37,577 nucleotides of DNA from Gammaproteobacteria bacterium. GTDB lineage: Bacteria; Pseudomonadota; Gammaproteobacteria; Pseudomonadales; Azotimanducaceae. The stretch lies in the NCBI GenBank assembly GCA_030123805.1, contig JASJXV010000015.1:1-37577 (forward strand), given 5' to 3'. Below the pieces are notes generated by a model that saw only the letters and a list, made by a program, of their open reading frames with translations, was not told the origin of the DNA and made no database searches. Shown here piece after piece: positions 3,104 to 28,567 of this stretch; position 1 is the stretch's first letter, and every line of letters begins with the position of its first letter. The position numbers and the translations under genes are program-made.

Positions 3104-3535
3104 TCACGATTCCTCCCTGCTGTCGGGATGTCAATCATGAAAGGGAGAAGCGGATCTGTGAAGCAGCGATAACCCTCAATCTTTGTAGGAGATTTTCCTG
3201 CTGTCACCCATTTATTTGATTAGATGTATATCCAATCAGTTGTAACAGCAGTTCCTGGACGGCCCATGCCATATGTCACCCGTCACCAGGAGTTCCCGAA
3301 ACGCTGCGATATATTCGGTCAAACAACTATTGATCTAGTGGATTTCCGAAATCCTGGCAAATTCGAATGACTCCGCACCGATTCGGACCTGAATGCGGCA
3401 ACCTCATCAACAAACCTGCTCACTTTCTGCACTGCATTGGACTGTGCCTACTATTCCGGCTACATTGCCATAGTCGTCAGGCATCGCATAGATCAACATG
3501 CGTGTGGTTGGATCATCCTTATAAAGAGGTCAACT
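3104..3535. other. 432-bp intergenic region, no clear gene
   Basis: This region separates divergent genes. Short open frames on the plus strand (for example 3367-3579) overlap the next gene out of frame and do not look like proteins. It should hold the promoters of both flanking genes. Some of it may be decayed coding sequence, as the gene to the right is itself a remnant, but I cannot assign it. Confidence 0.3.
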
Positions 3536-3838
3536 ATGAAACGGACTGTTTTACTAATGCTGCTCTTGCTGCCGGTTAAATTACTGGCGGGGTCGGTAGA
3601 CGCAGAAGCCAGGAACATCTTTCTGCTGACCCTGGATGGTTTGCGATGGCAAGAAGTATTTCGCGGTCTCGATGAATCTCTGGCTGGAAACCGCAAATAC
3701 AACGAACGTCTGGTTACCACAGGTGATGAGTGTCTTACTTCCAATCGAATTGCCGCAACATTACTGAAATTGTTGGGAGAAAAATACGAGCTTTTCAATC
3801 CAGATATGGGTCCGCCAATGCAGGAATTCTTAAAGTAG
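3536..3838 (+). pseudogene. Alkaline phosphatase-superfamily gene with large in-frame internal deletion
   Basis: A 100-codon frame starts at ATG 3536 after an AAAGAGG ribosome site. It has a signal peptide (about residues 1-19), then NIFLLTLDGLRWQEVFRG. That is the metal-binding N-terminal strand of alkaline phosphatase/sulfatase-type enzymes (the Asp of TLDG is a metal ligand). After only about 40 residues it reads SNRIAATLLKLLGEKY..FNPDMGPP, which looks like the extreme C-terminus of the same family. Full-length members have roughly 350-500 residues, so most of the fold, including the catalytic Thr/Ser and other metal ligands, is missing. The frame is still open, so a short secreted peptide could be made, but it cannot be an active phosphatase. 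An upstream in-frame start at 3437 has no ribosome site. Confidence 0.65.
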
Positions 3839-23157: not shown

Positions 23158-23230
23158 TTCAAATTTAAAAATTGAAGATCGATACCTATTCATGCGAAAC
23201 TCGTATCCATCTTGAAAAACAGACTTTACA

Positions 23231-23236
23231 AGGAGG
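23231..23236 (+). promoter_or_regulatory. Strong Shine-Dalgarno fixing the GST start
   Basis: AGGAGG, extended as AAGGAGG, ends 6 bases before ATG 23243. It is among the best ribosome sites in the window. It shows that translation is meant to begin 12 codons before the in-frame TGA rather than at the downstream GTG 23288, which has no such site. Confidence 0.75.
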
Positions 23237-23242
23237 CGTTCG

Positions 23243-23950
23243 ATGCAAGATAAATACCATCTGATAAGTTCATACACTTGACCCTGGGTGCAGCGCGCCG
23301 TGATTGTCCTGCGTGCCAAGAACGTACAATTCAAAGTTACTTATATTGATCTTCGCGACAAGCCCGACTGGTTCCTGGAGATTTCACCTCATGGCAAGGT
23401 TCCCGTGCTGGTCGTGGATGAACAACCGCTGTTTGAATCCAGTGCCATCGCGGAATACCTGGATGAAACGGTTATACCCCAACTGCACCCAACCGATCCG
23501 ATGAAAAGGGCGCGTAACAGAGCCTGGACCGATTTCGTTCCAGACTTTTCCAGGGCACTGGGGGGTGTTTCATATGCAAGGGACCAGGAAGCCATGCAGG
23601 CCGGTTTTAAACTGGCTCGACAAAGGCTGGACCGGCTTGAGGAAGCAATCAAACTGGAAAGAGGCAATGATGGCCCATATTTTAATGGCGATCAGCTATG
23701 CCTGGTGGATGCCGCTTATGCCCCTTTTCTGCAGCGGTTCACAATCGTGGAACGGGTAATTCAGTCCGGACTCTTGAATGATTACCCGCTCATACAGGCA
23801 TGGACTAACGCACTGCTCGCCAATGCGCATGTAATCGGGTCTGTGGTTGCTGAGTTCGAGGAGATATTCACGGAGAATCTCAAACGTCGCCAGAGTTACG
23901 CAGGCACATTACTGCACACAGCGCCAGCAGATATGCAAACAGCTGTATAG
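23243..23950 (+). CDS. Glutathione S-transferase with in-frame TGA at the active-site Cys (candidate selenoprotein)
   Basis: The frame from ATG 23243 encodes MQDKYHLISSYT, then TGA (23279-23281), then PWVQRAVIVLRAK and onward to a TAG at 23948. That gives 235 residues if TGA is read through. In Cys-type (omega/SspA-like) glutathione S-transferases this spot is the catalytic Cys of a CP[FW]VQRA motif at the end of strand beta-1, so the missing residue is exactly the nucleophile. The rest of the thioredoxin-like fold is intact: HGKVPVL with cis-Pro54 and FESSAI with Glu65-Ser66 for glutathione binding, then an all-helical C-terminal domain. There is no other stop or shift in the gene. Reading TGA as selenocysteine is an inference; a Cys-to-stop mutation is the alternative. 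GTG 23288 would give a protein lacking beta-1 and the nucleophile. Confidence 0.6.
23293..23316 (+). promoter_or_regulatory. Candidate bacterial SECIS-like hairpin after the GST TGA
   Basis: Bases 23293-23298 (GCGCGC) pair with 23311-23316 (GCGTGC, one G-U). Above this, a 1x1 mismatch, G-C, a bulged T at 23301, G-C and A-T pairs close a loop TTG at 23304-23306. The loop begins 22 bases after the TGA, within the distance expected for bacterial SECIS elements, and a bulged U also occurs in the E. coli fdhF element. GC-rich coding DNA folds easily, so this is weak evidence alone. Confidence 0.35.
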
Positions 23951-27518: not shown

Positions 27519-28145
27519 ATGTTAAAACTTCACGGCGCACCCCTGAGTAATTACTACAACATGGCAAAGACCGCTCTGCTGGAAAAGGGTATGGAATTTG
27601 AAGAGGTACTGGCTCCCCCTTCCCAGGAAGCCGACTACCTGGCCAAGAGTTCTATGGGCAAAATTCCCTGTCTGGAAACCGATCAGGGTTTTATGGCGGA
27701 AACCAGCGCAATCCTGGACTATCTCGAAGAGATCGAAGCGGAGACCCCGCTGCTGCCTGCTGATCCTTACCAACGTGCCAAGGTACGCGAATTGGCAAGG
27801 TCTCTGGAACTCTATGTGGAGCTGGTCGCACGACCAGGCTACAACGCACTTAGGGGCAAGGATGTTCCTGAGCATGCCATCGAAGCAATCAAGGCCGGTC
27901 TGCCTAAGGGTATGGCTGCAATACAGAGTCTGGCTAAATTCTCTCCCTGGATTGCGGGAGATCAATTCACCTACGCTGACATTGTAGGATATTTCACTTT
28001 TGTACTGGCTAAGCTGTCGGCAGAGGCAAATGCTGATCTGGATCTGTTTGCACAATTCCCTGGTGCCAGTGAATGGTTCGACAAGGTCGGTGAGCGCGAT
28101 TCAGTCAAGAAAGCACTGGCTGATCAGAAAGCGGCTAGAGGTTAA
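27519..28145 (+). CDS. Glutathione S-transferase
   Basis: A 208-residue GST with an N-terminal thioredoxin-like domain (MLKLHGAPLSNYYNMAKTALLEKG; SSMGKIPCLE with the cis-Pro; FMAETSAILDYLEE for glutathione binding) and a helical C-terminal domain. The active-site position near residues 10-13 carries SNYYN, so it would be a Ser/Tyr/Asn-type rather than Cys-type enzyme, unlike the TGA-containing paralogue 4 kb away. GGAG precedes the ATG. The VOC gene follows 53 bases later with its own strong ribosome site, so the two are probably cotranscribed. The likely role is conjugation or isomerisation of electrophiles. Confidence 0.88.
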   Translation: MLKLHGAPLSNYYNMAKTALLEKGMEFEEVLAPPSQEADYLAKSSMGKIPCLETDQGFMAETSAILDYLEEIEAETPLLPADPYQRAKVRELARSLELYVELVARPGYNALRGKDVPEHAIEAIKAGLPKGMAAIQSLAKFSPWIAGDQFTYADIVGYFTFVLAKLSAEANADLDLFAQFPGASEWFDKVGERDSVKKALADQKAARG

Positions 28146-28198: not shown

Positions 28199-28567
28199 AT
28201 GATCGGATATGTCACCCTGGGCACCAATGATCTGGAAGCAGCCACTGCATTTTACGATGCATTGCTGGGTGAAATTGGTGCAAGTCGCTTTATGGAGAAC
28301 GAACGAATGGTCGCCTGGGGTACTGAACCCGGCCAACCCATGCTCGCTGTAATAATCCCCTTTGATGAACAGCAAGCGACTGTGGGTAATGGCACCATGG
28401 TTGCCCTGAACCTTGGATCGCAGGAAGCCGTACAGAAATTGCATGCCAAAGCCATGGAACTCGGCGCACAAGATGAAGGTGCACCGGGTCCCCGCGGAGA
28501 TGGCAGTTTTTATGGCGGCTATTTTCGCGACAAGGACGGCAACAAGCTGGTTGCTTTCTGCATGTAA
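28199..28567 (+). CDS. VOC-superfamily (glyoxalase/bleomycin-resistance fold) protein
   Basis: A 122-residue single VOC domain: MIGYVTLGTNDLEAATAFYDALL at the start and YFRDKDGNKLVAFC at the end are family hallmarks. These proteins are metal-dependent lyases, isomerases, dioxygenases or small-molecule binders, and small glyoxalase-like forms often work with glutathione adducts. AAGGAG lies 8 bases before the ATG. Following a GST gene directly, it may process a glutathione conjugate (inference). Its stop codon TAA (28565-28567) is the outermost part of the inverted repeat that follows. Confidence 0.85.
   Translation: MIGYVTLGTNDLEAATAFYDALLGEIGASRFMENERMVAWGTEPGQPMLAVIIPFDEQQATVGNGTMVALNLGSQEAVQKLHAKAMELGAQDEGAPGPRGDGSFYGGYFRDKDGNKLVAFCM

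Follow-up and report, generated by a model that had tools for sequence, protein, structure and literature searches.

A GST-fold gene with an in-frame TGA at the catalytic cysteine position very probably encodes a selenoprotein

A gene at positions 23243–23950 (plus strand) of the window, the whole stretch of 37,577 nucleotides analysed here, very probably encodes a genuine selenoprotein with a GST fold, in which the TGA of codon 13 is read as selenocysteine (Sec). The preliminary description had proposed a candidate Sec enzyme at the catalytic Cys, and comparative analysis supports that proposal through the exchange of TGA and Cys among homologues, an RNA element downstream of the TGA, and the presence of selA, selB and tRNA-Sec in the genome.

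Results

Gene and reading frame

A Shine-Dalgarno sequence, AAGGAGG, read directly at 23230–23236 (plus strand), ends six bases before the ATG at 23243–23245. The frame opened by this ATG comprises 235 residues, counting the TGA as Sec, and closes with the TAG at 23948–23950. The TGA occupies 23279–23281 (plus strand) and aligns with the Cys of relatives that carry CP[WFY]VQR. It is followed by PWVQRA, and the frame then remains open up to the TAG. Reading the letters thus confirms what had been described, an AAGGAGG and an ATG opening a GST frame with an in-frame TGA and then PWVQRA, with the small correction that 222 codons, not 220, lie between the TGA and the stop.

A Shine-Dalgarno-like 4-mer precedes the chosen start in 50 of the 71 TGA loci examined. 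The residues ahead of the TGA (YHLISS.T) are kept, with synonymous drift, in 72 sequences. Single-base codon differences in the eight codons preceding the TGA are 5638 synonymous versus 980 non-synonymous (all pairs of distinct sequences), so these codons are under coding constraint. A standard gene call would begin past the TGA, and the active site would be lost from the annotated product.

Codon 13 in homologues

The 244 genomes around the window's own include 26 with a homologue at an E-value of 1e-30 or better, and in 15 of these, the window's own among them, the homologue has an in-frame TGA. A contig scan for relatives found 128, of which the best 80 were used. The query was aligned to 113 loci drawn from the 244-genome set and the best 80 of the 128 relatives; 111 matched, while L005 and L006 had no tblastn match at 1e-5 and lie outside the 111. 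Compared at residue 13, as the preliminary description had suggested, 78 of the 111 loci have TGA, 29 have a Cys codon (TGC 18, TGT 11) and none has TAA or TAG; the remaining four are three paralogues from the window's own genome (L002–L004) and L107, which is cut at a contig edge. Some loci were shared between the two collections, and deduplication over 165 bases left 73 TGA and 29 Cys sequences.

The TGA loci come from Alpha- and Gammaproteobacteria, as named in the records. PWVQRA directly follows the TGA in all 78, and 27 of the 29 Cys forms read CP[WFY]VQR. Further stops in close relatives had been named as evidence that would speak against a selenoprotein. Of the 78 TGA loci, 77 are free of any additional stop over the aligned part, and L104 has one more. 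In the 244-genome set, the frame of genome G004 also has a TAG. In-frame TGA thus stands opposite Cys in several independent homologues (78 TGA and 29 Cys, n = 111), a hallmark by which selenoproteins are recognised. With 78 of 111 loci (73 distinct sequences) sharing it, the TGA at codon 13 goes beyond chance, and since it recurs in many separate assemblies, a sequencing error at 23279–23281 is very unlikely.

A predicted SECIS stem-loop

An RNAalifold consensus built on 67 distinct TGA sequences predicts a 6-bp stem, at positions 15–20 and 33–38 counted from the T of the TGA, with a 12-base loop. In the window, and with pair counts as further evidence, the predicted bacterial SECIS has its 5' arm at 23293–23298, its apical loop of 12 bases, the second and third of which are G and U, at 23299–23310, and its 3' arm at 23311–23316, all on the plus strand. 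The stem-loop (23293–23316) begins 11 bases after the UGA.

Standard base pairs fill 429 of 432 cells in 72 TGA sequences versus 82 of 174 in the 29 Cys sequences, and all six stem pairs are intact in 69 of the 72 versus 2 of the 29. The three other TGA sequences (L008, L088 and L099) have one broken pair each. One further sequence, L020, does not enter the stem and codon counts, as its alignment breaks off shortly past the stem; on visual inspection its own stem has all its pairs. As a control, the register was slid by 1–3 positions, which gave at most 357 of 432 standard pairs and no full stems. The outermost pair shows a double change from G-C to A-T in L015 and L017, from the window's family, and in L064, named as Rhodospirillaceae; in the tree L064 stands apart from L015 and L017, though the base of the clade lacks resolution there.

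Codons +5, +6 and +7 after the TGA have the lowest third-base entropy (0.21–0.32 bits; median 1.48) of the 82 four-fold degenerate codons for which the data sufficed. These frozen codons extend from the 5' arm into the beginning of the loop, and the same codons are variable in the Cys forms. The bacterial SECIS model, as summarised in a 2026 review (PMC13188914), specifies a stem of 4–16 bp, a G among the first two loop bases, a distance of 16–37 nt from the UGA, a minimum free energy of −7.5 kcal/mol or lower and an apical loop of 3–9 nt. The window's element has a 6-bp stem and, at the second loop position, a G with U next to it; 17 nt separate the UGA from the loop, and the energy computed over 45 nt from the TGA is −10.7 kcal/mol. 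Its consensus loop of 12 nt is above the 3–9 nt given in that review; in the fold of the window's own sequence, additional weak pairs inside the loop make it shorter. A Rfam search of 23200–23450 returned no match at E-values up to 10. Taken together, the pairing and codon data point to an independent RNA element downstream of the TGA that is conserved in the TGA forms.

Selenocysteine machinery and co-occurrence

The preliminary description had regarded absence of selB and tRNA-Sec from the genome as a refutation, and both are present. The genome (G000) carries selA (588 bits) and selB (454 bits), adjacent on contig C165, and a tRNA-Sec (64.9 bits; cut-off 47) with anticodon TCA that ARAGORN also calls. 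The selD gene, which had been on the same search list as these three, was not found in the 94.8% complete, 252-contig assembly with three queries, namely TIGR00476, a two-row SelD alignment and the fused SelD of relative G001. The sole match to the last was a 26% segment over residues 13–315, outside the SelD domain, and the 16-kb contig that carries the tRNA-Sec likewise showed no selD. We infer that the missing selD is a gap in this incomplete, fragmented assembly. Across 97 genomes, selD is over the cut-off in 70, and in 7 of the 11 TGA genomes of that set; G004, which has the closest GST among the 244 genomes, has no selD match over the cut-off. On the selA/selB contig of the window's genome, L145:8987–11269 (G000:C165) encodes a protein of 760 residues in which about ten CxxCH motifs can be counted by eye; we take it to resemble an OmcA/MtrC-type multihaem cytochrome.

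Co-occurrence with selB was assessed in 49 genomes (33 TGA and 16 Cys) reached via named loci, the input being all 16 Cys and 34 of the 63 TGA loci of the best 80 of 128 relatives, with L045 left out. selB is over the cut-off in 31 of the 33 TGA genomes versus 4 of the 16 Cys genomes (Fisher p = 1.5e-6, a value that ignores kinship). In the window's own set the corresponding figures are 12 of 15 TGA genomes versus 128 of 244 overall; TGA genomes G040, G047 and G065 (completeness 93, 73 and 88%) have no selB over the cut-off. The genomes of the Cys forms nested in the Sec clade have selB in 2 of 7 cases, and the selB in the genome of L106 has an internal TAG. tRNA-Sec is over the cut-off in all 11 TGA genomes within the 97 searched, marginally so in G047 (48.3 bits). 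The tRNA-Sec cut-off by itself may be lenient, since 5 of 14 control genomes also pass it.

The genome G040 combines a TGA-type GST (L008), in which one stem pair is broken and the loop differs, with tRNA-Sec and selD and with no selB over the cut-off; this could represent an early loss of Sec decoding or an assembly gap. Several selD genes were observed along the way. On G001:C47, G008:C50, G014:C20, G040:C68 and G060:C115, tRNA-Sec lies about 0.5–11 kb from selD, and in these five genomes selD lies within open frames of 724–776 residues. One such frame, L139, was read; it encodes a fusion resembling the Ndh-SelD of PMC2398784. The selD genes on G002:C37, G012:C33, G019:C210 and G048:C12 have one in-frame TGA and probably encode Sec-containing SelD; in the G002 gene (L140), which was read, the TGA follows CG in its CGU motif.

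Sec/Cys exchange in the tree

A tree of 102 rows was computed with the Sec/Cys column masked beforehand. A supported clade (97/95) of 80 rows contains 73 Sec and 7 Cys rows, and over the 102 rows the Sec/Cys label changes 4 times, 2 of these forced by well-supported branches, versus about 25 times with shuffled labels. The nested Cys rows fall in at least two places, L054 with L106 and L048 with L062, L072 and L079, while L051 is nearby at a fork without resolution. This distribution is consistent with Sec-to-Cys reversions. Rows named as Alpha- and Gammaproteobacteria are intermixed, which suggests horizontal transfer of the gene; many inner forks are weak.

Fold and likely activity

The gene product is predicted to adopt a GST fold. 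Pfam matches are GST_N_2 (2.6e-20) and GST_C_2 (8.6e-8), and no NCBIfam model reaches its cut-off. The AlphaFold2 model, computed from 36 aligned sequences with Cys replacing Sec, has a mean pLDDT of 92.3, with a strand at residues 5–9, a helix at 14–25 and residue 13 just before the helix. Among the 50 best matches listed by Foldseek, tau-class GSTs come first and omega GSTs appear from rank 15, with query TM-scores of 0.74–0.82 for both and 22–29% identity to the 50 solved structures. Pfam, the model and Foldseek thus agree on the N- and C-terminal GST domains that characterise the GST-like selenoprotein family (COG0625/PF13409). The best phmmer match is Leishmania TDR1 (4ags), and the Cys of both its CP motifs aligns with residue 13 (CP = 13–14). 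A Cys at this place is the nucleophile in omega-type enzymes. On balance, the protein is likely to be a GSH-dependent thiol transferase or reductase of the omega, TDR1 or DHAR kind with a selenolate as nucleophile.

Genomic context

Gene context was compared in 66 loci, the window and 65 relatives above 54% identity, with clusters formed at 35% identity and 60% coverage. No neighbour in the window clustered with a gene of another locus. Among the relatives some neighbours recur in 6–9 loci, none of them present in the window. Context therefore gives no clue to function, as no window neighbour recurs among the 65 relatives. Fifteen minus-strand frames that start near −124 form a cluster and probably represent an antisense frame of the GST. 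A second GST (27519–28145, plus strand; Pfam GST_N_3, 3.2e-15), which has no CPWVQR motif, lies 3.6 kb downstream and is followed by a glyoxalase-fold protein (28199–28567). Elsewhere, a short frame at 3437–3838 (plus strand) has, by eye, a secreted phosphatase/sulfatase-type beginning and ends soon after; it has no Pfam match and is probably a gene remnant with an internal deletion, again by eye.

Discussion

Alternative readings of the TGA

Three other explanations were considered and rejected on the evidence. The TGA is one base away from TGC and TGT, and a probable gene remnant exists in the same window (3437–3838), so that a chance nonsense mutation in a decaying Cys-type GST might be imagined; with the same codon TGA and never TAA or TAG in 73 distinct sequences, with 77 of 78 TGA loci otherwise open in the aligned stretch, and with synonymous differences far exceeding non-synonymous ones upstream of the TGA, the probability of a pseudogene is negligible. 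It is also very improbable that translation starts at the GTG at 23288 and that the TGA merely lies 5' of a shortened GST. The open reading frame list does hold a GTG-started frame of 220 residues (23288–23950), but the strong Shine-Dalgarno sequence stands before the ATG at 23243, YHLISS.T is conserved with synonymous drift in 72 sequences, and the short form would, according to the model, be without strand β1 and the active-site residue.

There remains the idea that the TGA is translated, through suppression or an altered code, as Trp or Cys instead of Sec. In 29 sequences the position is indeed occupied by Cys; that these relatives have Cys and not Trp argues against Trp. A stem-loop frozen in the TGA versions and not in the Cys versions, the presence of selA, selB and tRNA-Sec, and the many long window frames that are open under table 11 all count against recoding of this sort, which has a very small chance of being correct.

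If, as preferred here, the gene encodes a selenoprotein, ribosomes would start at 23243 and meet the UGA at codon 13, where SelB carrying Sec-tRNA(Sec) would bind the stem-loop at 23293–23316. Sec would then enter the protein at the N-terminal end of helix 1, the place of the catalytic thiol in Cys-type GSTs, and the product would likely serve as a thiol transferase or reductase that depends on glutathione and uses the selenolate as nucleophile. A wider proposal is possible, if somewhat doubtful: that uncultured Alpha- and Gammaproteobacteria hold a coherent Sec-GST clade with a selenolate nucleophile and an unusually large SECIS loop with a near-invariant 5' half, that it is maybe a new GSH-dependent selenoenzyme (peroxidase or thiol transferase), and that Sec has repeatedly reverted to Cys upon loss of the Sec machinery.

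Relation to known systems

GST-like selenoproteins are an already known family, computationally reported and biochemically unstudied, of which the window's gene is a member. The Sargasso Sea survey counted GST, with 4 sequences, among its new selenoprotein families (Zhang, Fomenko and Gladyshev 2005; PMC1088965), and the GOS survey listed it with 12 (Zhang and Gladyshev 2008; PMC2398784). The statement in the preliminary description that such families had been reported from marine metagenomes was therefore accurate. The family (COG0625) also appears in two reviews (PMC9312934, PMC13188914), the second of which, from 2026, assigns it to PF13409 and describes the functions of such selenoprotein families as largely uncharacterised. 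The literature search found no enzymology of a natural Sec-GST, though it covered few subscription papers, so that absence is unproven, and it found nothing that combines GST-like selenoproteins with metagenome-assembled genomes. The present analysis adds genome-linked Sec machinery, a family-wide SECIS comparison, a Sec/Cys tree and the co-occurrence with selB. The clade offers natural Sec and Cys forms at 60–70% identity, in which one may ask directly what difference selenium makes to a GST and what leads to its loss.

The published family consists of GST homologues from marine metagenomes that have a bacterial SECIS and an in-frame TGA at a Cys site, and no motif of the CxxC type is listed for them. 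PF13409 is also the best Pfam match of the window's protein. Placement in the same clade as the published family (PPR62222.1, MEK9676863.1, Sargasso contigs) is by likeness of domain and kind of site. Closer at hand, the seven Cys-form relatives inside the Sec clade (L048, L051, L054, L062, L072, L079 and L106) share the CPWVQR motif and 61–69% identity with the window's protein, but have TGC or TGT at the codon, keep all six stem pairs in 2 of 7 cases and have selB in 2 of 7. The Cys-type GSTs, namely omega GSTO1, Leishmania TDR1 and plant DHAR/lambda, share the GST fold and the position of the nucleophile in a CP motif at the start of helix 1; the window's protein differs from them in having, as predicted, Sec in place of Cys.
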